NCBI GenBank assembly: GCA_963855995.1
Contig: OY979731.1
Span: forward strand, 3,187,001-3,251,000
Reading direction: 5' to 3'
DNA from: Muricea muricata
Taxonomy: Eukaryota > Cnidaria > Anthozoa > Malacalcyonacea > Plexauridae
DNA length: 64,000 bases
Both the position numbers and the translations under genes were made by a program. The notes under the pieces were generated by a model. It was given only the letters and a program-made list of their open reading frames with translations, was not told the origin of the DNA and searched no databases. Shown here piece after piece: positions 10,217 through 30,763 of this stretch; within the stretch, counting starts at the first letter, position 1; each line of letters starts with the position of its first letter.

Positions 10217-10690
10217 GGAGCTGTCCGCCATCTTGGATGAGTTGTCAATGAGTAAAAGAATAACAGTATTAAGCTATTAGTAACAATCAAGCAACACATA
10301 AGCCCAATGTTTGCCTAAAGGCTGCTTTCCAGTTATCCGTTTTTCACACGTACGTACACGCACGTAAATGTTTAAACTCGTCTAAGTAGTTTGTATTCAA
10401 CAAATAGAATCACTAAAACATGCTAACTCGTAGGGAATGCTGAATTCTTTCTATGTAAACAATTGTTCATTTCAAATGTAATATTGAAATGGATTTAGAG
10501 TTTTACGTGCGTGTACGCACGTGTGAAAAACGCGTAACTGGAAAACAGCCTTAAATGTGTGTTAGAAACGAGTTCTGATCGCTGTTTACCGAAATTAAAA
10601 TGTTTAGTGACCGTTGATATTCCAAGATGGCGGGCAGGTTTGAGCTTTAAGTCAAAATACCTCCCTCCAGAATCCAGTTACTCGATCTTA
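10217..10690. repeat. Second CCGCCATCTTGG foldback, interrupted
   Basis: CTGTCCGCCATCTTGGATGA at about 10222 and its partner near 10618 (TTCCAAGATGGCGGGCAG) are inverted, as in the 8855-9372 element. The TIR element at 10318-10552 lies between the arms, so this appears to be a nested insertion. Confidence 0.6.
10318..10552. mobile_element. Nonautonomous TIR element, TIRs of about 50 bp
   Basis: Left end 10318-10368 (AAGGCTGCTTTCCAGTTATC) and right end 10501-10552 are inverted repeats with few mismatches, including ACGTGCGTGTACGCACGT. Flanking TA/TAA at both ends could be a target-site duplication. About 235 bp with no open frame: a MITE of an unidentified DNA-transposon group. Confidence 0.85.
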
Positions 10691-11239: not shown

Positions 11240-11359
11240 TTATACGTCGCAAAATATTTGTGCGTCTTTAATTTGTTTTAATTTCGTCATCACGATTTCT
11301 GCTCGACTGTTTGCCTTTTCCAATGTCATATCATTGTTGCTAAATACATCATGAAATGT
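11240..11359 (-). CDS. Exon 15 (last coding exon, 39 codons plus stop)
   Basis: Too short to stand out as an open frame, but an excellent acceptor (ttttactttctttctag) precedes ACA TTT CAT GAT, and the phase (0) matches the GTGAGT donor of exon 14. It encodes an amphipathic helix-like stretch (TLEKANSRAEIVMTKLKQIK) and ends IFCDV followed by TAA at 11242-11240. Residues about 2527-2565. Without it the protein would end four codons after the donor, at a stop inside the intron. Confidence 0.7.
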   Translation of the reverse strand, partial: TFHDVFSNNDMTLEKANSRAEIVMTKLKQIKDAQIFCDV

Positions 11360-14300
11360 CTAGAAAGAAAGTAAAAGTAAACATACTAAACTATATGTAC
11401 TTTATTTATAATGGATAGCTAGTTCTAAACTGTTCTTATAGAGATCCATTAAGGATCATCTCTTATTGATCCAGTGTTACTACAGGAGGAAACCTAAATT
11501 AAACTAACTTTATTCATACTGGATAGCTCTATCAGTTCTAAACTGTTCTTCCTAGAGTTCCAGTAGGGATCATCTCTTATTGATCCAGTGTTACTACGGG
11601 AGGAAACCTAAACTAAACTAACTTTATTTGTACTGGAAGCTCTATCAGTTCTAAACTGTACTTTCCAGAGGTCCAGTGACTGAGTGACGAGGATCATCTC
11701 TTATTGATCCAGTGTAGCTACAGGAGGAAACCTAAACTAGACTAACTTTATTATTTCTAACTCACCGCAGATATTTCCCGTATGGCTTGCAAAGTACTGA
11801 GTACTTTCTGTGCGCTTTGTTTAGGTGTGTCAGCTCCGAGGAACATCCCTTCGAATGCCCGGAATAAATTTGATAAAAATCTTTCAACTCCTTGTCCACC
11901 GAGTTTCCTAATTCTTCCTTCCATTGTTGAAACCCATTCCTGTATAGCAACCTTATTCTGGTCTTCCTGATCTGCCTCGCAGTTCATTTTCCATTGATTA
12001 ACACCTACATGAAATACGAAATGTGTACATTAGCTCACTCAGAGCGGGCAGGGCACTTCCATAACCGATAAAACCAAGAATTATTGTAATCAGTATCATA
12101 ACAACAGAGGTCGTGTGATAAATTGCATGGTGAAAAAACATTTGATACATGAAATTTGTGAGACAAAGTTTGATCGTGTAAAAAGGTTTTAGATCGTACT
12201 TGTTTGCGAATGGCGGGAAGGGGACAATAATTGAGATTATGCTGTCCATTGCATACCTGCACCAACTGTACGTAAGTTCATCTCGATGTCTGGAAGGCGA
12301 TCGCGCATTTCAGGAGTATCCAGAACTGAAGTAGGATAAAGAAATTGTTGCAGCATATATAAATACAACCCTGTGCGCAGCTAATCTATATAGCAGGGGG
12401 GAGTGGAGGGGAAGGGAGTAGTATACTCGACAAATGTCATGTTCATGGCACGTGTTTCGAGCAATTTCGTAAACAGCCAAGTATATGGCAGTCGACTGAT
12501 AATAATAGTCTTTATTATCCATCTTCAGTTAAGAAAATTACAATGGTTTAGAATAATGAGTAACTATATACATATCTGATCTATATCTATAAAATATGCA
12601 TGTTAAAGATCTATCAAGTATGTATTGATTTACTTAAAAAAAGCATTAGTAAATGAAAAACAATGATAAATAGTGTTAATAGAGCTTGAAAATTGTTCTA
12701 GGCAGTATTGTGGTTCTTCGGAATAGAAATTGCTCTGGGATGAAGGATGATTGATGTCTATTTGTGCGGGAAATTGGCTGTGAACATTGTTTTCCATCAG
12801 TGTTTGATGTTTCTCTTTTTTTTCTTTTCGGGAAACGTTGCTGCGGGAGCAACTTCATTTGTTTCGCCAAGGAAACGACAAAAATGTAGCCGGCATAAAC
12901 TATGTATTATCTAATTTCCTTAAAATCTTTCAGGCAAAGAAACACTGTTTTGTATGGTGAACTGTACGTGAAGCAATGTTTCAGCATTCGTGTGAAATGA
13001 ACGGATGTTTCTCATGAAAGTGTATCGTAGTTTGACCACACCAGGAAACATAACATAAATTCATAAAAATGATGTTTTTCTTGGTTTGCTTTACCAAATG
13101 ACTAAATAAGAAAATTTATTAGTTTTAATATATAATTGCTCCAGTTAAGCGCTGACCGCAAGCGTTTTGAATTTCCCGCCTTTACGAGAAACCAAGATGG
13201 CGGAACGAAAGATAGAAACTTTTTACAGATATGTTTTACGTATTTTCAATTTTTGCTGTCTTAAATACGTATTGTGCGATTACAATGAAGTGGTAAGGTA
13301 TTAAATTTGTTAGTGTCGTGCAAACAGTGAAAAAACGTTTGAAAACATAGAAAATATTTCACATTTCGCTTCAGCCCAAACCAGCCCAGCTGTCGAACGC
13401 CTTGTTTGGATAATTCCAGTCAAGTTAGAGACGCAATTGCTGGTGTGAAATTGGTAAGTCAATTGATGTTTTCGACCACTGGCAATTGGTGTTAAAAAGG
13501 AAATTTTGTTCTAGTTTTGTTTTGTTTATTGTAAAGTAAACAAAACTAACTTTTTTTTATTGTTTTGAGCTGTTGTTCATCTGTTTTGTATTAAACTCTT
13601 ATCTATACTCATTTAAAAGTATTAGTAAACTTGAAAATTATGAACTGCAATTCATAATCTTTGATCCTCAAATAATTTAAAAACCTTCAAGTGATAACTG
13701 AAAATTGTATGAAATAATTGTTGAGCTATAAATGTATTAGTAGCCTATATGGTCTCTTTCTGCATAACTGCTTATTTTCAAAGCAGGCAATATGCTAAAT
13801 AAATTCAAGTCGTGAATTAGTGCCATCGAGAACACAAAGACAGCAAAGGGCAATGCAAGAATAACAAAGGGCATTGCTGATTAAGGAATACTGCCAAGCT
13901 TGCTTATGTATGCCCACAGAAAGTGATTATGCCCAGAGAAAGTGATTATTACCTTGCTTTTCAAGGTCAGTTATTGTCGTATTCAGCCCCAACTGTAGCT
14001 CGGTGAGTCTTTTCTCATATTGGTCCCGACTCACTTGGTAGGATTCTGACATTTTCTTAATTGTGCCCATCATGTCTTTGCATATCTCAACCAACTGACG
14101 ATACACTTTGCATTTCCCCTTCTTTGATGCTGAATAATAGACAGAACATTTAAGTATCATCTTTAACACACACTTTAACAAAATCCTGGATAGACATTTT
14201 CCATGATTAGGGTAACTTGATGGTCCTAGCAGCAGGGAGTTTTTTAAGAGATTGGTTTAAGAGGCATCACCCCCCCCCCCTCCCCCTCCCCCTGTTAAAT

Positions 14301-17300
14301 ATATTAACCAATCTGACCAAAAACATATATTAAGCATGTTTATCATCCAGTAAGGTTTTCACAAAACTTTGAGAACAAAGAATGGGGGGGGGGGGTTGCT
14401 CCTCCCCAAATACTGACAGCAGGGACACACATAACCTGTTCTTTCAGTTTGTTGCCAAAGTTTGGTAAAATTGACGTGATTTACAATTATACGTTGATTT
14501 TCTCGGCTTAAAAACGTCTATTGAAAATTCCTTCGTAAATAAACTCACAAGATGGGTACCGGTATAAAATGGACCATTCCCCTATTAGGCAAAAATTTTT
14601 AATTCGTAAAATCAATTGGCACAGCCGGAAAGAGCGTCTTAAATTTCATATAATTGGCATTGAGGTCATTTAAAATACTCGCGTTTCATGCTTTATCAAC
14701 AGAGAGCTTCAGATTTGACTGCGAAAACTAATGCGACGAGAGATTTTCCCGTTGAAAATCAGCTATTGCTAACTTGATAATATTTTTTTTTGACACAACA
14801 CTGTTATGTCCTGAAAACAGCAGATGATCCGGGACGAAAACGAATACGAGTTTGTACAAGGGAATTTAAGCTATAAAAATTTCGTAGTTATATAAAAAAA
14901 TTTTCGCAGCCATGGTCAAGTCCAAAGCTCCCTAATAGCAGATATAAAACGCTCGTGTTTTCACTGTTACGAAGAAATCACCATTAGTAGAAGCTGACGA
15001 ACTGCGAAATGAATAAAAATTCCGAACACGTTTTTAGGACAAATATTTACACGTGTTGAAATGAATATTTTCACAAATTAGTGAAAACTAGTAGGGGAAC
15101 AAGTCAAATGCGTAAAGATGGTGCGATTTCAATTTTTTTTCTTTAATCTATTATTAACTTTATGAAATTCGACATGCGTTAACAAATTTTTGCTAAAGAT
15201 TTGATGAAATTATCACGTAAGCGCGTAGCAGCTATTCTCCAAAAAACACGCCTTTTTATTTTGCAGGCCTTTGTTTAAGGGTCATCCCTCCCTTTCCCTG
15301 CCCACCCCTCCCCTCCGCCTCTCGGAAAATCGCCGTTACGAAAAAACCACATGAAAAAACCACGTGTGAATCACATGTGAAATTAGAACAGCATTTCACA
15401 TGTGATCCAAGTGTGGTAAAAACACAAGTGATTCACATGTGATCCACATGTGGATCGCATGTTACCACATGTGATTTACATGTGAAACACATGTGATTTC
15501 CATGTGTTTTTTCATAAGGGCGGTCTGATGGACATAAGTAATTTATACCTGGTATTTGCCATTTTCTCCTCAAAGGAGACCGCGGTACAGTAGTTCGTTG
15601 CTGTAGCAACGATATTACGGGAGGCTGGTAATTATTTCGGATCAACCAAAACGGCCTATTTTCCGGGTCGTCGTCCGTCGACTCGTACTCTCGTCGCCTT
15701 CTCGTGTATGCGTTTTCAGGTAACGTGGTGGTCAAATCCACTTGCTCCTCTTCCAAAGGTCTTCCGAAGAGTTGATCGCTTCTACGACGGCCACGTTTAG
15801 GTTTCGTTTCAGCTTTCTTTGAAGGAACTACAAACAATAAGATTGAACAAGTTTTGAACGAACAGTTAAGTATTTTGCTTTGGTAGTCTCATTTTAATGG
15901 ATCTGTTTCATTCTAAGAGCTTCATTCTCATGACATCCTTTAAAGTCGCAATTTGATCAATTCCACATTTAAGTCAATTGTTGCTAAATTTTTGCCGCAG
16001 CTCTCAGTAGAATTTTCGTCCGCTTTGCTCAGCCTTCATATTTTCCTATTTTGGCAGTGCATGTGCTGTTCGAGTACAACGCAGTGTCAGGAAATTATGG
16101 AACTGCCAGACACTCGCACGTTAAGGATCCGCGTTTCTTAAATAATTAGATCTGCTGCGTGTTTTCCGTCTGAAAGACCAGGCCTAATTGTACCTTATAC
16201 ACCATTATTAAAAGTTTACGAACCATAAAGCAAGTATACGACTTGAATAAAAATTATTGGTCGAAATCGTTTATTTCCACGGCAAAGAATTCATTGAATT
16301 ACTCCTATTTGAGAATGAAAATGGACAAAATTTAACTCTGGTAGTAAATTTATTAGTCCTATTAGCGAAGTTAATTTGGTTTCTTACACGAGGCGAGTAA
16401 TTAATGGCACTTACTTTTTGAGTAATGCTCAGAGGGTGAAAATATGGATCTTCATCGGAGATAGGCGCGCAATTTCCCCCGACATTTTGTAAAAAGGCGA
16501 CATTCAAAAGTCAAGCGTGGTCTTTCGATACTCCGAATGAATTATTTCTGTAGTTCCAGTATTGAACATGCTACAGCACTCTTAAGTTCTATACTTATGT
16601 AATTGTTCATACGAATCAGTGATTTGTGGGCGTTACACGAATGAGTGATTTGTGGCTGTAATATACATGTTAATATTGTATAATTTATTTTAATGACTGT
16701 ACAAAAAGGACAGAACGATTAAGTAAGGGAGATAGAATTTCATAACTATGAAGTAAGGTGTGTTACAAACCGTGAAGAATAAAGATTATAAAACCGATCG
16801 TTTGATTTAGTTCAATTCGAATGTTAGTAAAAACAGTAATAATCAATGTCTGTTTACCTTTGTGCTTGCGACTTTTGTGGAACATAAAATGTGCTATGTG
16901 ATTGGCCATCTTAGGAACGAGCTCCCTGTTCAGGCAGCCGTAGTATGGCAAGCTTTTCGTGTCGTCTTTGCTGGCGAATGTAGCGTTAATCCTCATCGTC
17001 AAACAACTCGTAGCGAGCGTCTTCAATGTAGTGTGGAAACACACAGCCTTGATGTTCACCAGCCGTTCTAGACCAAATCTCTTGATGGATTCAGCTGCGC
17101 CGAGACCGACACGAGTGTCGTGGTTAACGAGGTGGAGCGCCCGGCGTGCCGCGTCCAGTACCGCCTGAGTCTTCCCTTTCAAAAATTCTGTTTCCCACAC
17201 TATCTTTTCTCTCGCGCGCTTTTTTTCTTTGTCGGCATACACAAGTTTCTGTGAGCGACAAAAGATTACAATCTTAATCAAAATGCAGGGTTGCAAAAAA

Positions 17301-20300
17301 GCCACGGGTATGCGAGTATTACCCGCGAGGAAGGTTTGCAAAATCGCCAGTCAGTGAGGAAGGTTTCATGTCAACACACTACATAATGTATTCTAGACAG
17401 TAACATAACAAAAAATTAAAAGATGGTGATCTATTCCAGAAATCATGCCTTCTTTCTGAAAAAAATAGTGATTCATTCTCAAGACTCATTCTGATGTTCA
17501 GTTTGGAAAGCCCAATTTACAACATTTTGAGGAAGGTTGCGAACTTTGAACATTTTGCCCGGAGGAAGGTTGAACGCTTTTTGCAACTCTGTCAAAATGG
17601 ATGTTATTTTAAACATGCCACATATGGCTACATACTATTTAGAACAAGATCCGTATCTGTAGTTTTTTTAGATGCATTATATGATAAATAACGAAAGTGT
17701 TGGACTTCCACAAGACCCATCTGCGGGACACCTAAGTCTCTAACTTGCATTGAAAATTTGTTGCTGCGCACTTAATATACATCCGATTTTTATCAAACTT
17801 CCATCAGTCCACATACGCAGTATACTTTCATTTTGATACTGGTAATCAGCCATTGAAATTGTTCATGTATTGTACTCGTTAACTTATTACAAATTGTTCA
17901 TTGGTAATCGATCATGAATTGGTGACTGGTAGTTGATGATGAGTTGATCACTGGTAATTGAGCATATTGAGCATACATTATTCACTGATAATTAATCATG
18001 AATCGATAATTGGTGATTTTTTGCCATTCATTCTTACACAACCTGGTTGTCCTTAAATTATAAATAAAAAAGAAAATCTGAGATTTCATATTTATAGAAA
18101 TTACAATTATAGGTTATTAAACAGCTTTTGAATTTCGTGATAAACGGCCTTGAAAGCCCTTGAAACAAACGTCTGTGAATTTTATCCTTGATTTGTATAA
18201 AGCCTGAGCAATTCCGCAAAATTGATAGGAGCTTCATCTCGTACTTACCGCAATCTTTTGAAGATTTTCCGCCGCAACCTGTTTCATGATGCGACAAGCG
18301 TGGTTCTTTGCTTTGCAGATGGGATTTTTTCCATGCCAGCAACACGGCTTCCATCCAGGGCATTTAACACAGTTACCGAACACGTCGTGGTCACAACATT
18401 TCAGCCACGATGTACAACCGATGCAAGCTACGTATAACAAGAGACACGCATAACTTTAATCTTTTGCTGAGGTGCTTCGTTTGTGTTGGCCTGGGGAATT
18501 ACTGAGTACATCCGTAATGACAGTTCTCTGTGCAAACATGCACAATATCATGTCTCTGGAGCCATAGAAATGTTATATATCCGTTATTTAAACTATGCGT
18601 TGAACCCATTTCGTGTGATTGAAGGTATACTTAAGTGAGATTTAGTTTCGTATTTAAATGAGTCCCGGGAACTGCGTGAAGATTGTTTGTTCATATTAGT
18701 CCAACTTCTAAATTACCTTGATTGGGTAACTAGCCTATATGAGATCTGTGTGTTCATCTGGGTCCAGTTAGCCGTCTGAGATCTGCATTTTCATATGACA
18801 CCAGATTGCAGGCTAATTCAGGCACAACAATGTTGAGCAATGTTGTTGATAACCTTGAACAATGTGGGTAGCAAAACATTGTTCAATGCTGTTTTCATCA
18901 CGCCAGAACAGCTTGTTCGTTTTTGCTGTGTACAGGTCTATTTATTTCAAAACTTCAGTTAAAGCTACTATTGATGTAGACAAGATTTGTGTAAAAATAT
19001 TTCCAAACTTATATAAATAAGCTGTTCAGAAGTCACCCTTAAACTTTACGCTAAACGAAGGTTAAGTTAACCGACGTTTTTAACAACCGGCCCGTACAAA
19101 ATCAAAACCTACTTTTTCCACATCGCTGTTCGCTGCATGTTTTATTGTATCTTTCTTCAGCCAGAAACATTTCCCGATCATCACTTTCGATGTCATTCTC
19201 TCCCTCGTCCAACATGAAGATACGTTTGTGCTCCTCAGCCAAGGCTTGCTTGTGATATCTTGTCGCTTCGTCATAGTTTGCAGACGCCTGCTTAACGTAG
19301 CGCTGTGCTTGGTCAGCGGTTGCTGCGACGAGTAGGTTCACGTGTGAGGTTACTTTGGGAATGATGTCAGGTAGACATCCTGAGGCCTGCAATCAGGGTA
19401 AGCAAAGGTAAGGGAGTTAGTAAAAAAATTAATTGGCTGTCTCAGGCGCATATTATTTGATCATCATTTTACTGGTTTGAACAACAAAATACTGGTTATT
19501 TCAAGCAATGTATTGTTTGTTTTGATCAAATAGTATTATTGGTAAAAGAAAATGTCGAAGTGAGAAAATGTAAGTTAGTAAAAGTGGCTGAGTTAGCACA
19601 GCTGAATAGAGCATCCTAAATTTAGTAAAATGGTGAAGTTTGGCTGCAAAACATTGTACAATATTGTAATTTTGCTGTACTGTAAATTTTGCAAATTTTG
19701 TGTACTCTGTATCATGCGCGGAAAAGTGTAATCGGATTTCGAAATGTGATTTCGGATTTCGAAATGTGATTACACTTTTCCGCGCATAATACAAAAGTAT
19801 ACAAAATTTGCAAACTTCACAGGAATATATTATTACATTTTACAATGTTTTGCAACCAAACTTCACCATTTTACAAAATTTTATAGGATGCTCTTTTCAG
19901 CTGTGCTAATGAATATTTCCAATTCAAAAGTTTGTCCAAAAGAGGAATCGTCCATTAGTAAGTTCGTGAAAGTGAGTTAGTAAAACACAATACACACGTG
20001 ACGACGAGCGGCCGTATTCTTGTATAACCAATTAACCATTCACGAGCATGGATAATAGAAAGCTTGGGTGAAGATTTGAACGCTAAAGTGAATGCTAAGG
20101 AATTTGTGCGCTCAAGAAAATCTGTTTAAATCTGTTTACGAACATCTTAATAAGCTGCTCTGATTAGCTAAAACGACTTTGTGTCCCTGCGTCGAAAGCA
20201 CTCCACTGGGAACACAAATTTCTCAAACTCGCTTTATCTGTATTTTAAGGCCGTCTTAAAGAGTTGAAACATTTACTTAAATGCATATGCAGCCATTGTT

Positions 20301-23300
20301 GTGATGACATTATGTCCAAACGTGTGCTTAATTTCAGCATACGTTAAAACGAATTTTGTCCGTTTCGCTTAGGTAATAAAATATTCGATGGTTTTGTGTG
20401 CTTTTAGTATCTATGGCAATATGTAACTGCGTGAACTTACAAAATAGGGTCCATTCTCCGGCAGGCTGTCAGGAGACATAAACGACACAACTGTCTTAGT
20501 AATCCCAAAAAGGTTTCCACTCAGACTAAACTCGGTTCCAGACTCCGACACGTCGATCTTGGTTTCTGCCCCCAGACCCATGAAATTTGCGAATCCTTCC
20601 AACTTGAATTTCGTGGACTCCGGTGTCACCGTGAACCACGCGCGTGGGCCGAACCGCGGTCGGTGCCGGTCAGCATACACTGTTATAAGTCCGTCGTCTA
20701 AGATCAACGGAAATTTCGAATGCGACGTTTTCGCTGTTATGTGTTTGTCCTTGTCAATGCGTAGTTTACAGATTAGGGTTCGCGATATGATGTCGAGTTT
20801 TCCATACAGCTCAAGATCTTCGTCTTTCTTCTCGTTGGGCGTGTATCTAGTTGACAATGTTATATTATGTAGCAATTATTGAATGACGTTGACATTCTTC
20901 ATATCATGCAAAAGCCGAAATCAAGAATGGACCATTCCCCTATTAGACAAACTTTTGAGTTCAGAAAATCAATTAGCACAGTTGAAAAGAGCATCCTAAA
21001 TTTCATACAATTGCAAAGTTTGGTTGCAAAATATTGTAAAATGTGGAAAATATAGTTCTGTAAGGTTTGCAAATTTTGTACACTTTTGTACACTTTTGTA
21101 CTACGCACGGAAAAGCGTTGCCACTATGTAGAAATCTGGTAACGCTTTTTCCCACCCAATGCAAAAGTATACAAAATTTGCAAACTTTATATTACTATAT
21201 TTTCGACATTTTACAATATTTTACAACCGTACATCACAATTTCAAAAAATTTTAGAAGCTATTCGAACTGTGCTAAAATTATTTATGAATTTAATAGTTT
21301 GCCTAATTGGAGAATGGTCCATTTTTTTATTATTTATTTAAAATTGAAGCACTCAAAAGATTTTGATATATTTAGCATCTGTGTGTTGGGCTGATAAGAT
21401 GATCTGTGACAACGTTTAAAATTTCCAAGAACTTTACTAATGGTGTTGTATTTCCATGCATACAAAGTGACTCTAAAACTCCAAGTCCTGAAACCAACAA
21501 TCCTAATATGTTACTGGTTACAGCAAGTTGTTCCTTGAAACATTTTGTTATTTTTTGCTGTCTAATTTGTTCGAGAAAACGATTGCTTCATCGCCTCCTC
21601 CCCCCCCCCCCACCCGTGGCAATAACCACCACTTACTTCACAACGAGCGTTTCGGGAAAACGTGAATTGAGCAACACGCCTGGCAGGCTTGACTTGAAAT
21701 TCAGCGAACTCGTAATGGTTTCCAAGGTGATATTCGCCAGTGTCGCTAGGAAACCAACATCTTTTGGTTTCGACGGCAAGAAATTCAAGTAGGCCGGAGC
21801 GACAATGCGATACAAGCTACCGTAGAGACCAAAATTCAATTGTCCTGTGACAAGAAGCTCTTCCATCGGTATACCACTGATCAGCGGTACGTCGATCTGC
21901 AGACGATCAAAATTGAGGAATTTCCCGGGGAACGGATGTGACCACGCATTTCTACTGGACATTCGCAGTCGGACGCCGGTCGGGTCAAAATTGACAAAAC
22001 CAGTAAAAGTCAAATTATTCTTTTCCAAACGCATTGCCGTAGCAATGCTCATGTAGCTGTAATTGCCCATAGTAAACTGCAATATATTATCTGTCAATTT
22101 CAAGTCTTTCGCCAATTTGAAATCTCTGTCGACGTATCCAGCCAGCGTGTAACCACGTGACGAGACTAGACCTTGGACTCGGTACCATTTCTCCGTGCCC
22201 AACAATTGCGCAGCCGATTCACAAAGCGTGTTCAAACTGCATACGTCGGGCAGTCGGAACTGTCCGACCAACGAGAGACCTCGCTTGAACGAGAGACCCT
22301 TGAACTCGGGATTCAGGAAAAGGGATTCCGTGTCGACAGGCGACAGCACTAATGTTGTGTTTCGACTGTTATCCAGTAATCTTGGAGTTGGAAACTGGTT
22401 GAAACTGAATGCATCGATAGCGTAAGTCAGCGGTAATTTATCAAATAAATACCCAATCGTCATTCTCCTTCTATTTGCAACCGTATCGTGAAATATTACC
22501 GCTTCGACATAAATCGCGTCGTTCCAAGACATCGGCCTGGATTCGCCTGAAAAATGGACCAGCCCGCTTTGACTGTCTTTTACCGTCGCAAACATTCGAG
22601 CATTTTCGATATTCGCATTCAACATTCGGTTCTCGTCAAGGATACGTCTGGCGTCATCCTCCATTTCCATGACAACGCCGAACGACTTCTCAACATCCGG
22701 TAACCAAACTGTGTGCGCCTCACCGCTGATCAACAATTCGTTGGCGCCTGTGTTGGTATGCAAGCTGACATTCATGGTCGCTAAGCCTATTTTTGTACTG
22801 CCCGAGCCATACAATGTCAAGGTAGCGAATTCATTGGAGACTTCTTGTCGAAACTCCAAGGCCGCGTCGTCTAAATATAACATGCCTGGTGCTACGTTAA
22901 ATTGACTGGTCGAATATCCCAAAACAGTGTACAACGATTTTTTCAAATCGTATCGGATCTCCCTTAACAGCACGTTGCCGACATCCGGGTAACCGAGAGA
23001 GGATATTTTAGGTCGCGTGAACTCGGAGAGAGTTTTAAAAACTTTTGTTAGCTCGACTGTCGTTCCCTTTTTTGGGAAAAAGTTGATCGCTTCTGGCGAA
23101 ATTTTCATTATAACATCGTGACTTTCGATGTCGTTTTTAGAGTGGAACAATATGGGTAGAGTCAAGGTAACGCCAGATGAAATATGCGAGCCTAAATCCC
23201 TTTCGAGCATCCCTTCTCCGAAAACGTTCAACCTCAACTTTTTAACGTCGCTTGATGAAGCTGCGAAGCCAAAACCACCGCTGCTAGCCACCTTAAATGA

Positions 23301-26300
23301 AATAAGTAAGTTATGGCATCTGTTGAAATGGGAAAATGAAAGAAAATGATTTAGTCAAATTTGCATTGGTATGGGATAACGAACTGTGCTATTCCATCGG
23401 TATAGGATAGCGAACTGTGCTATTCCATTTGAATATCTACTGCTCTTTATAAAGCATTCTTGACGATAGTGCAGTCTTATTAGTATGTAGTGGACCGGGA
23501 GCATCTAAACTGAAAATGCCGGAGTAATTTAGGGCCTAAACTTCTAGCGCCATTGCGCTAATATGTCTCTTGCGTTGGACAAGCTGCACCACGTATTATC
23601 AAATCGTTTGGCACTGTTATAGTTCTTAAAACACAAGCTAACTAAATTGGGTTCTTGCACACATCTCTCTGAACCACGCAAATCAGTTTTAGTGCTAGAA
23701 AAGACTCTAAAACACCCATTTCTCTAAATATTTTGCAAAATGTTAGGAAATGTCGAGCCTTATAAATACAGAATAAAAAGCCCGACTATCTTCTGCGTGC
23801 AGCAAAAGATTGGAACGAAAATATTAAAAAGATTGATATAAAAAGCAACAAAAGATTGAAACGGAAGTCTTTCATGTTCTCCTTCGAATCTTAACTGCGC
23901 TCCCTTCTCCCACACAGCGCTATTTTAAACTATTTCCAAAGGGAGTGACTGCTTTTGTTTCGGGCACTTTGTGAGAGAAGAATCCATGACGAATAACGCC
24001 TATACGAAAAATTTACTTATTCCTTGCCCAAACTCAAATTCAGAGAATTAAATATTTTTTAAGCCAATTACTGTTGAATAAAATAACCCGGCAAAAATAA
24101 GAAATCTACGCAGAGGAAACCGATATTACATACCTTTAGCAAACCTTTGTCGTCCAATAACTCCTTCACGTACGGGATTTTTGCGACGTTGTCGGCCATC
24201 ACCGAAGTCAGCACGGACTGTGGCGAGCCTTGGTCGAAATCCAGCAGGATAGAAAACACCGTATCTGTGTTAGGGAATTTCTCGATAAAAGTCTGACAGC
24301 GAGAGGCATGGGCACCGTGGCCGACTCGCACATCGCCCGACACCAGGGATACAATATTTTCAAAGTCTTTGAAAACAACATAAAGCTCGATGTCTGAAAG
24401 CATAATTTCTGCGAATGTGTCCATGTTCATTCCAGATTTGGCGAACGTTTCTTGGTTTGCAAACATCGAAGAATAATCGTGTAAAGCCAGAGAGTCTCCC
24501 TTGCCTGTCAATGTGAAGTGATCGGCATATTTTGAACTTTCCAAAGTGACTTCGATTTCTTGTTCGCCGTTCACCCAAGTACCTGGAGGGATATAAATAG
24601 GAATTCGTGGCGAAACCTGACAATTTGGTCATGCTGTGCAAATATTTCCCTGTTTATTGAACGTGAGAACAACTATTCTGTAAGGAAATCAAAATTCATA
24701 TGAGATCATGAGTTTGGGGGCATTCCGTTCCAAACATATTATGCGTTGGGTGTACCCGCGGGGAAACATCGACTTACAGCAGAACTTTGATCATCTCTTC
24801 ACATAAGCGCAACACGTTTAATTAGGAGGGATCGATCTCAGAGATTAAAGGCGTTCATACACCCACGAAATTGTCGATATCAATATATATGTTAAGCAAA
24901 TACAAATACACACGTTTGTGTATTCTGTATCAAATATTGATGTGAAATGTTAAAAAGGTCTTGCTTTTCTTTGCAAACACATTTCTACAATATTGCATCG
25001 AAATATTGAAATTGAGTAAACATACAGAGGCTGGAATATCATAAGTAAATTGATTAACAGTCTTATTTAATTACCTTGAGCTTTAAATTGCCATTTCTGT
25101 CCTTTAGTTTCCTTGTCGTTATAACTGAACTCCACCATCGCATTGCTTATCTCCAATTTGTCATTAAACAATTTCATTGGATCTTTCATGTCTGACGTCA
25201 CGCTGACGTCATTGTTCTCGTGAACATTGTAAGTAAAGCTCACCGTGCTCATCTTTGACAGTTTCGCAAAGCCCTCTGGGAGACTTGGTAGAATTCCTGA
25301 CGGGACAAGATCGTTTAACAAGTCTTGGACGTTGCTTTTCTTTCCTAGAAAGCAGAAATATAAAATAGGAAAAAAATCATTATTACTTGATTTCTAACAT
25401 TACAGATTTGTAAATCATAGTTGCACATTATTCAGAGAACGTGTCTCAGTATGGTATGGAGATTTGTGCTGCAAAATCAACTTCGAGCGCTTTTGTCTCT
25501 GCGACATAAAACAATTTCAATTCTGAACGCTTGCAAGGATTTGCAATTTGTGTAGAATTGGAACACTGCACATATGAAAAGTCAATTGCACATATGAAAT
25601 TTTATGTGTAAATTGGAAAAACTTCACGCATGAAAAGTCAATTTCTCATGTGAAATCGATTGTGAAGGGATAGCTAGATTTAATATAAAAACATTTAGAT
25701 AAATTTTATAGATTGTAGTTTAAAAGATGCATTTAATAGCTAACGCGTTTTTGTATAACATATGAGTGTAAACTTCGAACAAATTTGGCATAAATAACTC
25801 GTCAAGTGCTACGAATTAAGCCTGCAGTGTGTACTAAATGTTGTGAAAAATAATGATAAATTGCCCGTTTGAAAAATTAGCATTGACATTCGGTGTTTTT
25901 TTATTTTGGTGAATGCATTATTTCTGCATACTGTAGTTAAAATTGCTGAAATTATAGCTAAAATTTACCTACCATGAAAAATGTCCGGAAAATTTATGGA
26001 TTTCATACCATTGAATTCAGCAAACCCATGGTATGAAAGGCATTTCTAATTTTTTTTCTCAAATGTTGAATACAACAAAAAAATTTCCAGTGATTACTGA
26101 CTGTGTTATGACAACACCAAGATTAAGCAAGCTAATCTACTGCTTCTTACCTTGTGTAGTTTTATCCTCAGTAACATCCCCCAAATTTTCGTTCGTGTTA
26201 TATCCGCTGGTTCGATCTTTAACTTTTCTAAAACTTGTACCTCCAGCATTCTCGTTACCAGAGGAACCTCCCACCAAAGTACTCACCACGTCCGCCTTCT

Positions 26301-29300
26301 CAGTCGAGGTAGGACCTCCAGGGACTTCCCCTTTGCTCTCTTGGTTTGGTACCATGTCCGCGGCTTGAGAGCTTCCAGTTGCTTTTGTGGTGTCCGCAAG
26401 GTAGTCGTCACTTTTGGCTTCGGCCGCTTTCAGCCGTTCTTCATCTTCTTTGATTTGATCCCCAATGTTCATGCTTAGTTGTTCAACTTTGTTTTGAATA
26501 TCCTTATTTGATTTCGAATCATCTTGTTTGCGGTTTATTTCGTCTTCAGAATTCTGGTTATCGTTGGCCATGTTGTCGCTCGATGGCAACGTTAATCCTT
26601 GGCCATTGTTGTTTCGCAAGTTTACATCCGCTTGTTCAACAGGATTATTTTCCTTGCCGACGTTTTCTTGAAGATTCTGTTTTACATTACCATTGTCATT
26701 TTCTGCCAGCGTGGCGCCTTGCTCTTGTGAAGGATTATTTATGTCGTTTTGTTGAGGATTTTGTTTAACGTCGGCAAAATTGCTTCCCGGAACCGTAACA
26801 CTTTGTTGTTGTCCAGCATTAATAGGACTGTTTTCCTTGAAGTCGTTTTGTGGAAGATTTTGTTTAACGTTCGCGATATAATCGGCTCCTGGCGTTGTCG
26901 GTGCTTGCTCTTGAACAGAATTTTTAATGTTGTTTTCCTGAGGATTCTGTTTAGCTGCGGCCATACTATCACCTCCTTGTACAGGATTGTTTTCTTCTAT
27001 AACTTTCTCTTGAACATTCTGTTTAACGCTAGCAATATCATTGCTTACTGGCGTCGTTCCTGTTTCCACTTGACCGCTGTTCTCGTTTGGGTTTGTTTCA
27101 GCAATTACAGGGTTTTTTTCCTTTATGTCTTTTCCTTGGAGACCCTGACTTTCGCCATTTGCAATATTGTCCCCTTGTGCCATTTCTTGACCATCATTAA
27201 CCTGTTTGGACATGTTGTCGTTTTCTGGTAAAGTCTCTGCAATTTCTTTACCATTATTAACAGGATTGGCTTCCTCTTGATCGCCTTTCGGTATATTGTT
27301 TGGAATCGTCGCTGCCTCTTGAGGATTATCTTGTTTCAAGTTTGTTTCTTTGTTCGCCATTTCTTGAGCACTCGGACTATCTTGGGGCATATTTTTGCTG
27401 TTTGGCAATATGGCTGATTCTTCACCAACATCTGACTTTGGCTTTGTGTCAAAATTGACAGGATTGGTGTCTTTTCCTTGAGAGTTCTGACTATCCTTTG
27501 TCAACGTTCCGGCTTCTTGTTTTGTGTCCGGCTGTTCTAAATTACCTGGATTTATTTCTTTGTTATTATCTTTTGCCAAATCGTTTGAACGTTGAGGTAT
27601 TTGTTCACCACCGTTATCCTTTTCACTTTTGTCTTTAATATTCGAGCTTACATCATTTGTTTTCTCAGCATCAGGAGGACTGCTGTCCGTATTCCCATTG
27701 AGCTCATTTGCAGGTTTGTCGGTTGATGGTTCGTTGTCGTTTAACTCGTTTTCTTTAGCTGTTGCAATAGCAGGATCTTGTTTGTCTTCGCTTTCGCTGC
27801 TGTTTGACTGTGTTTTGTCAGTGCCCGAATTGGTAGGGTTTTTGCTTGTGGTTCTTGCCGCTGGTTTTTGTGTATTTTCATTGATTATGTTGTTGTCTGT
27901 TGTTGATTGTGTCTGTTGGATTGTTTTGTCAACATCCGTTGTTGCGTGTTCTGGCTTGCTAACATCTTTGTTGTCATTATCCTCAGTTAGTATTGTTTTT
28001 GAACTTTTGTCGTCCTTGTTCTCTGTCGTTGGTGCAGTCAGTTTATGAGAATCCTTGTTCTCTGTCTTGTCTTCAATTTCTTTACTCTGGCTGTCTTCAT
28101 TTTTGATGCTTTGTGCTGCGGATGTGTCTTCCTTAACTTTGTCCTTTTCATCATTGTTGTCGTTAGTCACCTGTGGTTTTTGTGCGTCTTTATCGCGGTC
28201 TGTTTTTGTCTGTTGTTTTTGTGCTGCTTCGTTAAGGTCATTTTCGTTAGTAGTGTTCTCGTTCTTTTCGCTGTCATCCTTGTTCTTGTCACCATTGTTG
28301 TCCTTGTCATCATCGTTTCCTTTATCGTTGTGGCTTTTGCTATTGGTTTTATTGTCGAAGTTACTGTTTTTGCTGTCGTCCTTTTTGTCTTCGTCAGCGC
28401 GTTCTCCAGTCATTGGTTTAAATTTTGAGTTGTCTTCTTCGTCTGACGTCTCAGTGTCTTCACTCGTTCCCGGTTTCAACTTTTCATTGTTTTTGCTCTG
28501 ATCATTTGTATCTGGTTTCTCAGCTTCAGTATCTTTGCTTTTCTTATTATTACTTGTTATCTTTGGCGCTTCATCATTCGTATCTTTGTCAATGTTTTTG
28601 TCAGTTTTTTCATCACGGTTGGTATCCTTCTCGTCGTCTTTGTCTTTGGTATCTTTTTTCTCATCATCAGAATCGGTGCTTTTCAAGTCCTTAGCATCGC
28701 CTGTTCGGCTAGGTTTTTCGTCTATATGTTTTGCATATTGCTTTGAAGTTGCCACTTTCTGAAACACAGAAGGAACGCTATGCATTTAAAAGTGTATTTA
28801 TAACAAGCGAAAGTGTTACAAAGACGTTAACATCAATGCGAAAAAAAATGAACGCGCTAAAATGATGAAATGACGGGCTACTTCAAAAAGTCATCGTTGT
28901 TTGCGATTCGTTCTTAAAAATACAAATTTTATAGTTTCTTGTCGTTCATTCTTATAACCAACCGCTCGCAAAACCTGTTAGTTTGGGTTTGTGGTGACAC
29001 ACAAGTAATGGTGATACCATTCTAAGTATCATCACGCAACTGTCACGATGTAAGAAACGTTACTAAAGTCTATCTTCCAGCCGACACCGCGTTGCTGCAC
29101 ATTGCTCATTCCTAGGCTTCTATACTGACACTGCTTTGTCGAGCTACCTTCCCCTGTTCTCTATTGTAATCTGTATAGTATTAGATAAAAAGCAAAAATA
29201 AAGAAAGCCCAGGGAAACCTACCTTCATCCTGGGCAAATCTTCAGTATTGCTTTCACGTTCGTCTTCGTTCACCGATTCCTCGTCATCTTCGTCACTCTT

Positions 29301-30763
29301 GATGTCTTTATGTTTTTTTGCTTTTCTTCCCTTTTTGTCTTTTTTCATCGCTTTTTGTCTTTTTTCATCTAATTCATCTTGTTCAAGGCTTATATCTTTC
29401 TCTTCGTATACAGCCTCGCCGTCTTCTAGGCTGTCTTTGTTTTCTATTTTATCGTCATTTTTGTCCTTTTTTGTTTTGCTGTGAGCGTATTTGTGTTGGA
29501 TTTTAGATTTTCCCACAGTCTTGTCGCTGTCCACATCATCATCACGCATTCCGTCGTCGTCGTCATCTTGCTGCAGCAGTGACACAAAAAATAGTACACA
29601 AAATCTGGTTAGATGTTGCGTAATCTGGTTAGATATCGTCTGGGTAATAAGGTCTCCTGGCTATTAGGAAATAATCACAATTCTTGATTACGATTCTACG
29701 AGGATGGGGTGCGGTGTGGGGGGGGGAACGGTTATTTACCCCTCCTATATTTAAGAAATTTATGACCGAGAAACATGAAAAGGCACAAACGAGGGCATTT
29801 GGAATTTGGAATAACACAACTGTCGAAATTACTGCATACTAGAGTGAGCCATTGTACTTCAGCTAAGTTGTTTGAGTAGCCTAATTTGCAATTGTGCAAA
29901 AGTCTTAAAGAACAAAGTACATGGCGTCCCGAAAATTGAGTGACACTGTACAAATTATATTATTCTTCTTAGATGGCTTTTAGACACGTGTGATTAGAGA
30001 TCTTGGAACTCAGTGGATTTCTACTTGCATCGGTTAAAAATTTTAAAACGTTTTTGCTTGGTTTGATTTACTTGAAATTTTTTTGTATTTTAAATTCAAG
30101 AGGTAGAAGTATTACAGATTCCAAACAGTGAAGTCAAACTTCACAAACCAAAATTGAGGTTCTGATTAGAGATTAGTTAGCGAACATGAAATCAATTGGA
30201 ACCAACGGACAATTTGGTCTGCTCACTGCGCTATTAGGAATTCTTATTTGTGACATGATTTTGGGATCAACTAAATTGGCATGTACAGCAAAGAACAGAC
30301 AACTTGTTCCAAGTTTGATTAAAACAGAATGCAACAGGATTCAACTGTGTTTTGCTGTCCACATTGTTTAAAGTTGGCCTGCAACAAATATTGCATAACA
30401 AGCGTTTTTTTCATCTGATTGCAGGCTCATCAGTATTGTTCAATATTTTTCACATCTATCAACGTGGACAACAAAACATTGCTCAACCCTATTGAACTGA
30501 AACTTCAAAATTATACATGTATTTATTACGTATGATTTGTCAGCAGTCTCCGCCATCTCCCTGTCTTCGTCAGCATTCCATGACGTATCATCAGACATTG
30601 AGTCATCATCGTCAAAATCATCAGGCTTCTTTGTATTATACTTCATATAAGGGGAAGTAAACGTGCCGTCGACTTCTTCCACCAGATCTGGAGTGTTCGA
30701 TGAGTTAGAAATTGCTGTAAACAGTAGCAGCGATAGAAATGCTTGTTTGATCACCATATTCAT
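11240..30763 (-). CDS. Large secreted modular protein, 15 exons, unknown family
   Basis: Fifteen exons (listed separately) join with consistent phases into about 2,565 codons. Order in the protein: signal peptide (1 to about 22), acidic segment to 78, Lys/Asp/Glu-rich segment (79-194), Asn/Asp/Lys/Gln-rich disordered segment (195-1063), beta-rich region (1064-1990), Ala-rich helix segment (1991-2081), ten-cysteine cluster (2082-2141), helix plus beta module (2142-2271), basic segment (2272-2364), helical C-terminus (2365-2565). No transmembrane segment after the signal peptide is evident, so secretion is inferred. I recognise no named domain. The helix-then-beta layout with NIK and an FxxSLSGxxFGIT-like strand reminds me of large uncharacterised secreted proteins of marine invertebrates, from memory only. 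A vitellogenin or apolipoprotein-like protein is a weaker alternative. Confidence 0.8.
11401..11756. repeat. 110-124-bp tandem repeat, three copies, in last intron
   Basis: Three copies starting at TTTATT (11401, 11509 and 11623), each with GGATAGCTCTATCAGTTCTA, TCTCTTATTGATCCAGTGT and GGAGGAAACCTAAACTAA. Same unit as 1858-2045 in the opposite orientation. The array ends only a few bases from the exon 14 donor, so it fills most of this intron. Confidence 0.9.
11747..11752 (-). terminator. Possible intronic poly(A) signal
   Basis: AATAAA on the minus strand five bases after the read-through stop (TAG at 11759-11757). It is part of the tandem repeat, so three such hexamers recur along the intron. 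If used, it would give a shorter protein ending SAVS in place of exon 15. Confidence 0.25.
11766..12004 (-). CDS. Exon 14, helical C-terminal segment
   Basis: Acceptor (tatttcatgtag) then GTGTTAATC; enters in phase 1 and leaves in phase 0 at GCG followed by the donor GTGAGT. Encodes about 80 residues starting GVNQWKMNCEADQEDQNK, with amphipathic helix character (EWVSTMEGRIRKL, RFLSNLFRAFEGMF, KVLSTLQAIREIS) and one cysteine. Read through the donor, the frame ends three codons later at TAG. Confidence 0.82.
12257..12325 (-). CDS. Exon 13, 23 codons
   Basis: A short exon recovered from its splice sites: acceptor tttctttatcctacttcag, donor GCAG followed by GTATGC. Its length is 69 (a multiple of three) and both ends are phase 1, matching exons 12 and 14. 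It encodes VLDTPEMRDRLPDIEMNLR and a few more residues, continuing the helical C-terminal region. Confidence 0.8.
12326..13952. other. Intron 12 of the large gene
   Basis: AT-rich, with an isolated CCAAGATGGCGGAACG word at about 13192, as in the foldback arms upstream. I see no other exon that would keep phase 1, and no complete mobile element. Confidence 0.5.
13953..14129 (-). CDS. Exon 12, coiled-coil-like
   Basis: Acceptor (tgtctattattcag) then CATCAAAG; donor CAAG followed by GTAATA; 177 bases, phase 1 at both ends. Encodes ASKKGKCKVYRQLVEICKD and then a heptad-like helix through KKMSESYQVSRDQYEKRLTE and LNTTITDLEKQ. Two cysteines. Suggests oligomerisation, by inference. Confidence 0.85.
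14268..14293 (-). other. G-quadruplex-capable run
   Basis: The minus strand reads GGGGG AGGGGG AGGGGG followed by more G, fitting the four-G-run pattern. A G run on the plus strand (14384-14394) could also pair with it. The minus strand is the transcribed sense, so the intron RNA carries the G-rich version. Confidence 0.5.
14568..14660. repeat. Foldback MITE family M, copy B (5' part only)
   Basis: Begins AATGGACCATTCCCCTATTA and continues with AATTGGCACAGCCGGAAAGA, then loses similarity near 14660. The other arm is missing. It abuts a piece of the 6210-6430 element in inverted orientation. Confidence 0.75.
15341..15513. repeat. Cluster of CACATGTG palindromes
   Basis: At least seven ACATGT palindromes within about 170 bases, most as TCACATGTGA or CCACATGTGG, with related TGTGATCCAAGTGTGG words. 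Each contains two overlapping CANNTG (E-box-like) sites. Either a degenerate tandem repeat or a protein-binding cluster; it lies about 40 bases inside the intron after exon 11. Confidence 0.7.
15549..15827 (-). CDS. Exon 11, basic segment
   Basis: Acceptor (tcttattgtttgtag) then TTCCTTCAAAG; donor CCAG followed by GTATAA; 279 bases, phase 1 to 1. Encodes VPSKKAETKPKRGRRRSDQL and then an Arg/Pro/Glu/Asp-rich, mostly disordered stretch (YTRRRREYESTDDDPENRPF) and PRSPLRRKW. Several dibasic sites could be furin-type cleavage sites if the protein is secreted (inference). Confidence 0.85.
15828..16857. other. Intron 10 of the large gene
   Basis: No further exon supported. An open frame ending in a GTAAGT word at about 16414 was examined and rejected. 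A short duplication (CGAATCAGTGATTTGTGG and CGAATGAGTGATTTGTGG) lies at about 16611-16655. Confidence 0.5.
16858..17248 (-). CDS. Exon 10, helix plus beta module
   Basis: Acceptor (ttttgtcgctcacag) then AAACTTGTG; donor AAAG followed by GTAAAC; 391 bases, phase 0 to 1. Starts KLVYADKEKKRAREKIVWET, then an Ala/Val-rich helix (AVLDAARRALHLV), GLGAAESIKRFGLERLVNIK, and alternating hydrophobic strands (AVCFHTTLKTL, CLTMRINATFA). Ends in a Lys/Arg/His-rich tail (MFHKSRKHK) that runs into the basic exon 11. Three cysteines. The helix, GLERLVNIK and strand order looks like one unit of a repeated module, of which only one clear copy is present. Confidence 0.85.
17249..18248. other. Intron 9 of the large gene
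   Basis: Contains degenerate tandem words (GGTAATCGATCATGAATTGG, GGTAATTGAGCAT, GATAATTAATCATGAATCG) at about 17890-18015, with a period of about 30 bases. No exon or named element seen otherwise. Confidence 0.5.
18249..18427 (-). CDS. Exon 9, ten-cysteine cluster
   Basis: Acceptor (cttgttatacgtag) then CTTGCATCGG; donor GCG followed by GTAAGT; 179 bases, phase 1 to 0. Encodes about 60 residues with ten cysteines and three tryptophans in the first 50: TCIGCTSWLKCC, GNCVKCPGWKPCCW, NPICKAKNHACRIMKQ, followed by an Ala-rich helix (VAAENLQKIA). The two CC pairs and the CPxWxPCCW core suggest a compact disulfide-bonded unit. It links the helical exon 8 to the helix-beta exon 10. No named Cys-rich family matched from memory. 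Confidence 0.87.
18428..19112. other. Intron 8 of the large gene
   Basis: Contains AACAATGTTGAGCAATGTTG words at about 18826-18910, an isolated member of the TTGTTGAA-type palindromic group. No exon found. Confidence 0.5.
19113..19386 (-). CDS. Exon 8, Ala-rich helical segment
   Basis: Acceptor (taccctgattgcag) then GCCTCAGGATG; donor AAAAA followed by GTAGGT; 274 bases, phase 0 to 1. Encodes ASGCLPDIIPKVTSHVNLLV and a long helix with spaced Ala (ADQAQRYVKQASANYDEATR, YHKQALAEEHKR), then an acidic stretch (DEGENDIESDDRE) and two cysteines (KTCSEQRCG) leading into the Cys cluster of exon 9. Confidence 0.85.
19590..19956. repeat. Foldback MITE family M, copy C
   Basis: Left arm (starts within the family word GTTAGCACAGCTG) and right arm are inverted around a centre with TTTCGAAATGTGAT repeated twice. 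Right end AAAAGTTTGTCCAAAAGAGG then AATCGTCCATT. The extreme left end is missing or too diverged. Lies in intron 7 of the large gene. Confidence 0.85.
19957..20440. other. Remainder of intron 7
   Basis: No exon, RNA gene or element recognised. Confidence 0.5.
20441..20846 (-). CDS. Exon 7, end of beta-rich region
   Basis: Acceptor (acattgtcaactag) then ATACACGCCC; donor TTTT followed by GTAAGT; 406 bases, phase 2 to 0. Residues about 1855-1990. Short alternating strands: DLELYGKLDI, LICKLRIDKD, FPLILDDGLITVYADRHRP, AWFTVTPESTKFKLEGFANF, GLGAETKIDVSESGTEFSLS, GNLFGITKTVVSFM. The pattern (charged/hydrophobic strand, Gly, strand) continues exon 6. Confidence 0.88.
20926..21323. mobile_element. 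Foldback MITE family M, copy D (most complete)
   Basis: Ends AATGGACCATTCCCCTATTA (left) and GGAGAATGGTCCATT (right) are inverted. The two half-elements match in reverse order throughout (GCACAGTTGAAAAGAGCATC, TTGCAAAATATTGTAAAATG, GTACTACGCACGGAAAAGCG). About 400 bp, no coding frame. In intron 6 of the large gene. Confidence 0.88.
21324..21636. other. Rest of intron 6
   Basis: AT-rich, with a C run at 21599-21611 close to the exon 6 donor. No exon seen. Confidence 0.5.
21637..23291 (-). CDS. Exon 6, main beta-rich segment
   Basis: Acceptor (acttatttcatttaag) then GTGGCTAGC; donor GTGAA followed by GTAAGT; 1655 bases, phase 0 to 2. About 551 residues (1304-1854) dominated by short amphipathic strands: KLRLNVFGEGML, GVTLTLPILFHS, FATLTLYGSGSTKIGLATMN, GLSLVGQFRLPDVC, NNLTFTGFVNFDPTGVRLRM, ELLVTGQLNFGLYGSLY. 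A helical insert (VVMEMEDDARRILDENRMLN) interrupts them. Two cysteines at the DVCSLNTLCESA turn. Potential N-glycosylation sequons (NVS, NTT, NYS, NLT, NIT) fit a secreted protein. Probably several repeats of one beta fold, too diverged to delimit by eye. Confidence 0.9.
23292..24133. other. Intron 5 of the large gene
   Basis: Includes a short duplication (GGTATAGGATAGCGAACTGT and a near copy) at about 23369-23430. No exon seen. Confidence 0.5.
24134..24582 (-). CDS. Exon 5, beta-rich segment
   Basis: Acceptor (tttatatccctccag) then GTACTTGG; donor AAG followed by GTATGT; 449 bases, phase 1 to 0. Encodes GTWVNGEQEIEVTLESSKYA, HFTLTGKGDSLALHDYSSMF, then a more helical part with DIELYVVFKDFENIVSLVSG and FSILLDFDQGSPQSVLTSVM. 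The strand spacing continues from exon 4, so exons 4-7 form one structural region. Confidence 0.88.
24583..25074. other. Intron 4 of the large gene
   Basis: AT-rich, no exon or named repeat seen. Confidence 0.5.
25075..25344 (-). CDS. Exon 4, start of beta-rich region
   Basis: Acceptor (tttctgctttctag) then GAAAGAAAAGC; donor CAAG followed by GTAATT; 270 bases, phase 1 to 1. Encodes GKKSNVQDLLNDLVPSGILP, a short linker, then strands MSTVSFTYNVHENNDVSVTS, LEISNAMVEFSYNDKE and QKWQFKAQG, which read directly into GTWVNGE of exon 5. Marks the switch from disordered to folded sequence. Confidence 0.88.
25345..26150. other. Intron 3 of the large gene
   Basis: Contains near-repeats CACATATGAAAAGTCAATT and CGCATGAAAAGTCAATT at about 25568-25660. 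No exon seen. Confidence 0.5.
26151..28758 (-). CDS. Exon 3, 870-residue Asn/Asp/Lys-rich disordered segment
   Basis: Acceptor (ccttctgtgtttcag) then AAAGTGGCAAC; donor CAAG followed by GTAAGA; 2608 bases in one exon, phase 0 to 1. I see no Cys and no Trp. The first half is Asp/Lys/Glu/Asn/Ser/Thr-rich (KDTKDKDDEKDTNRDEKTDK). The second half has degenerate repeats of about 30 residues built around VKQNLQEN or AKQNPQEN, then KENNPV or EENNPV, with Pro/Thr spacers (TTPGAD, TVPGSN). The C-terminal part becomes helical (IKEDEERLKAAEAKSDD) and Gly-rich (VGGSSGNENAGGTSF). Likely an extended polyelectrolyte linker or matrix segment; ion or mineral binding is possible but unproven. Open frames on the opposite strand are shadows. 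Confidence 0.93.
28759..29222. other. Intron 2 of the large gene
   Basis: No exon, RNA gene or repeat recognised. Confidence 0.5.
29223..29570 (-). CDS. Exon 2, acidic then Lys-rich segment
   Basis: Acceptor (gtgtcactgctgcag) then CAAGATGACG; donor AAG followed by GTAGGT; 348 bases, phase 0 to 0. Encodes QDDDDDGMRDDDVDSDKTVG, then KTKKDKNDDKIENKDS and KKDKKGRKAKKHKDIKSDED. Entirely charged and low-complexity, continuous in style with exons 1 and 3. Confidence 0.88.
29571..30529. other. Intron 1 of the large gene
   Basis: Contains a G run at 29720-29727. A plus-strand frame at 30186 with a hydrophobic N-terminus (GLLTALLGILICDMILG) was seen, but it is short and unsupported. A pair of loosely matching words (AACAGGATTCAACTGTG and CAACCCTATTGAACTGAAAC) lies near 30333-30500. 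Confidence 0.45.
30530..30763 (-). CDS. Exon 1, signal peptide and acidic segment
   Basis: ATG at 30763 is the first Met, with an in-frame TAA six bases upstream, so the frame cannot extend further without a 5' exon. MNMVIKQAFLSLLLFTAIS is a typical signal peptide with probable cleavage after about residue 20-22. Then an acidic stretch (DDFDDDDSMSDDTS). Donor TAC followed by GTAATA after codon 78, phase 0, fitting exon 2. Confidence 0.85.

Follow-up and report, generated by a model that had tools for sequence, protein, structure and literature searches.

The beta-prone core of a predicted giant extracellular protein from Muricea muricata recurs at other loci of the same genome

Introduction

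Does a very large gene whose product matches no named protein family encode an orphan, or a member of a family which the libraries do not hold? This question is raised by a locus in a window of 64,000 nucleotides from Muricea muricata (Cnidaria; Anthozoa; GenBank assembly GCA_963855995.1, contig OY979731.1, positions 3,187,001 to 3,251,000 of the forward strand). From the nucleotide letters alone the original prediction was a secreted giant protein of an unrecognised family, which would probably serve as an extracellular structural or matrix protein. Here we examined the gene model, the composition of the predicted protein and its relationship to named families and to other genes in the 453 Mb (74 contigs) of its own genome. 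Loci outside of the window are denoted by contig and position.

Results and discussion

A gene of 15 exons

On the minus strand, from 30763 to 11240, splice sites and open frames joined 15 exons and 14 introns into a single frame (Table 1). The exons add up to a predicted coding length of 7,698 nt, i.e. 2,565 codons and a TAA. All 14 introns (252 to 1,627 nt) start with GT and end with AG, and the phase is matched at every exon join. Coordinates and length were identical to those predicted originally (15 phase-consistent exons, 14 GT/AG introns, about 2,565 codons). In the two largest exons the frame stays open for 882 and 573 codons; at a GC-content of 37% this excluded chance as the source of the frame. 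A leave-one-out codon-usage score ranked the chosen frame at the top of six in 14 of the 15 exons, the exception being exon 9. Scores were slightly negative for exons 9 and 15, and that of exon 14 was also low. When all GT or AG sites of the gene served as reference, the top 8.1% included 12 of the 14 donors and 13 of the 14 acceptors; donors 1 and 7 were weak, as was acceptor 6. The gene of 15 exons and 2,565 aa is confirmed as real.

Less secure parts of the predicted gene are exon 13, which could be skipped, and exon 15, the least certain of all. Read-through at the donor of exon 14 instead adds V and S, followed by a TAG stop. Because this stop is reached after two codons and an AATAAA at 11752 (minus strand) lies just past it, an alternative form of 2,528 aa which ends in exon 14 is plausible.

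Table 1. Exons of the gene (positions in the window) and properties of the encoded segments.
Exon	Position	Strand	Properties
1	30530..30763	-	start resembling a signal peptide; acidic, Asp-rich, aa 1-78; weak donor TAC/gtaata
2	29223..29570	-	Asp/Lys/Glu-rich, aa 79-194
3	26151..28758	-	869 aa, Asn/Asp/Lys/Glu-rich, Cys-free, disordered-looking, aa 195-1063, net charge -71
4	25075..25344	-	beta-prone region begins, aa 1064-1153
5	24134..24582	-	beta-prone, to aa 1303
6	21637..23291	-	551 aa, beta-prone, aa 1304-1854; most of conserved core; LPxxCxxNxxCxxxxxLLG at aa 1650
7	20441..20846	-	conserved beta core ends (core match aa 1640-1976); weak acceptor 6 and donor 7
8	19113..19386	-	helix-prone, aa 1991-2081
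9	18249..18427	-	10 Cys in 60 aa, CVKCPGWKPCC...NPICKAKNHACR; weak coding score
10	16858..17248	-	basic, helix-prone, aa 2142-2271
11	15549..15827	-	basic linker; furin-like polybasic sites (pattern only) RGRRR aa 2283, RRRR aa 2314
12	13953..14129	-	helix-prone
13	12257..12325	-	69 nt, frame-neutral; helix-prone
14	11766..12004	-	helix-prone; donor GCG/gtgagt or read-through to TAG two codons on
15	11240..11359	-	last 39 codons and TAA; helix-prone

A protein of contrasting segments

The predicted protein begins with the signal-peptide-like sequence MNMVIKQAFLSLLLFTAIS..., as judged by eye, in agreement with the signal peptide that had been predicted. After this start, exons 1-3 encode an arm of about 1,040 aa without Cys which is rich in Asn, Asp, Lys and Glu and looks disordered. 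Its net charge, as a sum of the per-exon charges, is about -96. Downstream follow about 930 beta-prone residues (strand amphipathicity peaks in exons 4-7), then helical and Cys-rich segments, a linker of polybasic character and finally a helix-prone part. The per-exon composition thus bore out the sharp shifts along the chain which had been claimed. Beyond the start a strongly hydrophobic stretch of 19 residues was absent. Because the best 19-residue mean elsewhere was only 1.21, the remainder of the chain has no membrane-span-like stretch. Together with the signal-peptide-like start this supports the prediction that the giant protein is secreted.

Exon 3 contains five imperfect repeats around VKQN (26654-27038, minus strand), which points to growth of the disordered-looking arm through duplications. 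In the folded half internal repeats were detected neither by BLASTP nor by hhalign among eight pieces (probability at most 5%), and a further copy of the protein was absent from the rest of the window. Single-sequence AlphaFold predictions of isolated exons were unusable: exon 6 had a mean pLDDT of 29.6, and the all-helical model of exon 10 was of low confidence (mean pLDDT 44.3).

An acidic arm in a secreted protein of an anthozoan brings to mind the organic matrix of biominerals. The arm would bind calcium carbonate and the beta core would anchor the protein in the matrix. The N-terminal part is indeed net negative and contains Asp, and acidic SAARPs/CARPs are described for stony-coral skeletons in an excerpt of a study on red coral skeleton proteins (PMC7853314). 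These skeletal-matrix proteins share with our protein acidity and secretion, the latter as far as the signal peptide, judged by eye, is concerned. However, in exon 3 Lys is almost as frequent as Asp (100 versus 102 residues). The arm is therefore of mixed charge, unlike a near-pure Asp-rich protein; it is Asn/Lys-rich and joined to a Cys-containing part of 1,500 aa. We consider a role as a biomineral matrix protein unlikely.

Searches for a named family

Residues 1064-2565 had no match at E<=1 in Pfam and none in NCBIfam; aa 1-194 (exons 1-2) likewise had no Pfam match at E<=1. In the PDB neither single-sequence queries from residues 1064-2565 nor two profiles (A2 and A3) found an entry at E<=10. 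A 719-aa stretch of the protein was without a match at E<=1 in phage records. In viral_contigs there was no confirmed match for the protein or for profile A2, in genome_contigs no confirmed match, and in Rfam none at gathering scores. The claim that the protein belongs to no named family was thus upheld in Pfam, NCBIfam and the PDB for residues 1064-2565. Large lipid-transfer proteins, which the original prediction had singled out as a possible contrary match, did not appear among the Pfam matches of these residues at E<=1.

Within its own genome the pattern C..CPGW..CC is confined to the gene in the window. Forty loci in viral_contigs which carry the pattern were dismissed as chance because all 40 translated stretches (up to about 70 codons, by eye) contain a stop and the tblastn matches were short or marginal (best E 0.008).

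Relatives in the same genome

The order of a beta region, a Cys-rich CPGW segment and helices is, in our view, reminiscent of large animal proteins which form a family without a name. A hand-written consensus of this family was the first query against the own genome. It yielded seven matches at E<=1. Two were in the window gene and are circular, since this gene had been read beforehand; the other five were at loci previously unseen: C11:1.42 Mb (E 0.01), C16:9.18 Mb (E 0.013), C11:10.07 Mb (E 0.07), C11:9.91 Mb (E 0.3) and C16:7.00 Mb (E 0.92). A second hand-written query had six matches, i.e. the window gene, two each at C16:7.0 and C16:9.18, and one at C2:9.07 (C2:9070199, E 0.12). The latter resembled a chance match at first. 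Because a neighbouring match to the C16:7.0 protein had an E of 2.2e-4, C2:9.07 was accepted as a relative. Matches at C2:62834526 (E 6.25) and C13:5588109 (E 0.04) were taken as chance. In viral_contigs a hand-written query detected one weak locus of 24 residues. In Pfam a hand-written query for the tail had ten matches, all below cut-off, and the cores of the relatives matched three families, all below the curated cut-offs; in another search one relative matched an unrelated family at E 0.1.

Is the core of these loci homologous to that of the window protein? The relatives' exons were trimmed by hand, and a profile was built from C16:7.00, C16:9.18, C11:1.42 and C2:9.07 without letters of the window protein or of the hand-written queries. 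With this profile, in which two of the four members (the C16 pair) are 62% identical to each other in the core, the window protein scored 32.3 bits (E 5.6e-9 among 2,002 sequences). Controls remained far below: none of 1000 permutations in which blocks of 30 residues were rearranged, so that local strand patterns stayed intact, was as good (best 16.4), nor was any of 1000 shuffles (best 5.3), and the reversed sequence scored 0.8. The match was collinear and comprised two stretches within residues 1640-1976 (about 340 aa). Gap-tolerant local alignments of residues 1601-1990 with three relatives each exceeded all of 300 local shuffles (z 5.8, 6.9 and 4.9). Block permutations of the same residues were as good in 0 of 500 cases for C16:7.0, C16:9.18 and C2:9.07, and in 2 of 500 for C11:1.42. 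Earlier tests were weak. BLASTP best hits were equalled by 2 and 4 of 300 shuffles for two relatives and by none for a third; with a two-sequence profile the window protein scored below 2 of 300 shuffles; hhalign gave a score of 25.4, with a maximum of 25.7 among 60 shuffles; a three-relative profile gave 7.8 bits, above 1000 shuffles. Core homology was settled by the gap-tolerant alignment and the four-relative profile.

An alignment of the five cores has 16 invariant columns, 11 of which are Gly. The motif LPxxCxxNxxCxxxxxLLG is exact in the window protein, C16:7.0 and C16:9.18 (0 of 20000 shuffles). It is missing from the tested stretches of C11:1.42 and C11:10.07 and altered at C2, and thus not every family member carries it. 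Between beta core and helices the intron is in phase 0 in the window gene, C16:9.18 and C16:7.0 (by eye); at a second junction near this border the phase differs and the position is shifted by about two residues.

By these sequence comparisons at least four further loci of the own genome carry a homologue of the beta core. The protein is then no orphan but belongs, as a divergent member, to an uncatalogued family, because its core is common to other large cell-surface or secreted proteins of the same genome. Of the claim of an unrecognised family the missing library name stood, isolation did not. The core is without a name in Pfam, NCBIfam and the PDB; the predicted product as such is a modular extracellular giant, a kind already known.

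Conserved Gly and a long beta-prone stretch with its highest strand amphipathicity in exons 4-7 could also be reconciled with a groove for lipids or other hydrophobic compounds, as in large lipid-transfer or AsmA/VPS13-type proteins; the arm would then be a solubility tail. The beta core may resemble a groove of the AsmA/VPS13 type. Vitellogenin and apolipoprotein B type proteins, too, are very large and secreted and have a long beta-rich stretch. Yet in vitellogenin the helical part precedes the beta part, which is the reverse of the order here. Further, Pfam matches at E<=1 did not include a lipid-transfer domain in the window protein (aa 1-194 and 1064-2565) or its relatives; specifically, Vitellogenin_N, DUF1943 and VWD did not match residues 1064-2565 at this threshold. 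We regard a lipid-binding groove as quite improbable.

Variable modules around the core

The window protein and the core relatives of its own genome have in common a collinear beta core which is followed by helical and/or Cys-bearing exons (by eye). They differ in what surrounds it: lectin and F5/8-C or Ig and Fz modules in relatives versus the acidic, disordered-looking arm. At C16:9.18, Pfam identified Ricin_B_lectin and F5_F8_type_C_2 beside the core; C16:7.00 is a near-copy with similar lectin-like exons (by eye). At C2:9.07 (C2:9063244-9072300) an I-set Ig and two Fz domains of the Wnt-binding type precede the core (Pfam). C11:1.42 has an upstream repeat of the PEPGEPG-type. At C11:10.07, cbEGF, Sushi, EGF and two Ig domains (Pfam) are followed by a TM-like stretch without a Pfam match. 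C11:9.91 is a near-copy of C11:10.07, with a tail that carries the repeated Tyr motifs VYEEP, VYAVP and VYERI (by eye). The best reading of these data is a family with a beta-prone core (aa ~1640-1976 in the window protein, perhaps from 1064), succeeded by helical and Cys-bearing segments, in which the outer modules would vary.

Besides seven loci on C11, the C11 receptor type has a single locus on C14 and another on C15, and C15 also contains a fragment. The seven receptor-like copies of C11 are crowded into about 450 kb (9.876-10.329 Mb), lie on both strands and share 55-71% identity with the query copy. This looks like an expanding cluster of recognition receptors. In comparisons of the C11 receptor-like genes with the core family 17 and 19 of 1000 permutations were as good; their membership in the family is only suggestive.

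Could the window protein be a soluble recognition or immune protein, i.e. a secreted cousin of this EGF/Sushi/Ig receptor-like cluster? Receptor-like genes of a similar tail layout have expanded on C11, the tail of the 9.91 Mb copy is rich in Tyr, and the Cys motif NxxCxAKNHxC occurs both in the window protein and in the C14 relative (equalled by 20 of 5000 shuffles). However, this Cys region was not significant against C15 (734 of 5000) or C11:10.07 (475 of 5000), and the permutation values above make a place of the receptor genes in the core family no more than suggestive. In addition, aa 1-194 and 1064-2565 of the window protein lack lectin, Ig, EGF and Sushi matches, and a close copy of either folded half was not found in the own genome. 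We consider an immune function improbable.

Outside of the core the similarity to relatives was weak or not significant. For the N-terminal beta part (aa 1064-1640) 6 of 1000 permutations were as good as the profile match, and pairwise comparisons were not significant (156 and 395 of 500 as good). With profiles of the helical/Cys half the window protein was unreported in one test and equalled by 186 of 1000 permutations in another; pairwise, 177 and 62 of 500 were as good. A receptor-type tail profile detected nothing in the tails of the window protein, C2 or C16:7.0. A profile of the Cys/helix-2 segment was equalled by 91 permutations and 11 shuffles out of 2000 each; for a beta-tail profile from eight genes these were 38 of 2000 block permutations but no shuffle out of 2000. 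Short motifs and segment order, and only these, would link the helical/Cys tail to the relatives.

Relatives of exons 1-3 were not found, and these exons could belong to another gene. Two neighbouring genes may have been fused in the model, one for an acidic, disordered secreted protein (exons 1-3), the other for the core protein (exons 4-15 plus an undetected first exon). The composition changes abruptly at the border of exons 3 and 4, and the N-terminal parts of the relatives differ. Against such a fusion, donor 3 is within the best 0.41% and acceptor 3 within the best 0.98% of the gene's sites, and the phase matches. To us this makes two genes an improbable solution.

A candidate extracellular scaffold

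We favor an extracellular scaffold protein which is secreted, consists of several parts and belongs to an uncatalogued family of animals, and assign to this reading a probability of about one half. As to secretion, location, cation binding, cleavage and assembly of the protein we infer the following. The core and the coiled, Cys-bearing part would form a body which binds partners or itself and assembles. The acidic arm may act as a hydrated, cation-binding brush in the place which recognition modules occupy in the relatives. Possibly a proprotein-convertase cleaves in the polybasic linker of exon 11, and the C-terminal helical piece would be freed or activated. The site of action might be the mesoglea, mucus, cuticle or skeletal matrix.

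Among known systems the cnidarian Polydom and Polydom-like proteins are similar to the relatives as they are secreted and contain EGF, Sushi, ricin-like, F5/8-C or Ig modules, according to an excerpt of a report on the sea-anemone matrisome (PMC12549020). They differ from the window protein, in which neither these modules nor HYR had a match within aa 1-194 and 1064-2565 (Pfam, E<=1). The excerpt of PMC12549020 contains no description of the uncatalogued core.

A bolder proposal, which we put forward tentatively and consider rather doubtful as a whole, is that the core is a new animal extracellular domain which was shuffled among lectin, Fz/Ig, EGF/Sushi/Ig receptor and disordered-arm contexts. 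It would be present at at least 5, perhaps at least 14 loci of this genome; the seven-copy receptor-like cluster could serve self/non-self or microbe recognition, and the window gene would encode a soluble matrix form. Through this apparent orphan an uncatalogued and possibly sizeable family of extracellular proteins comes within reach. Provided that the core serves its members as a common domain for binding or assembly, a name for it could account for other giant proteins annotated as 'uncharacterized' and would relate matrix proteins to a cluster of receptor-like genes in an animal group which branched off early.

Surrounding DNA

Intron 14 contains a 114-bp tandem repeat of 2.8 copies (11421..11752). 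On the minus strand the sequence AATAAA recurs with it at 11752, 11628 and 11514, and again at 11406 just beyond the array. Introns 7 and 6 carry MITE-like element copies with long inverted arms, GCACAG..GAAAGAGCATCCTAAATTT and variants (19593-19920 and 20916-21326); similar sequence is seen near 10000-10250 and near 14616 (by eye). The regions 2658-3247 and 6003-7350 contain tandem repeats, namely an array with a 22-bp unit (26.7 copies) and, in three stretches, a repeat of 86-87 bp. Two open stretches on the plus strand rich in Ser, Asp and Glu, SLSDTDSENETAW and DLSETESESEWQD (3375-3734 and 7434-7757), look like exons of a neighbouring gene. Elsewhere in the genome an anthozoan signal was seen at C1:100068659-100069087, the sole match above the Pfam cut-off for GFP; its letters FPNNGPVMQK... 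resemble anthozoan GFP, and it has three stops inside.
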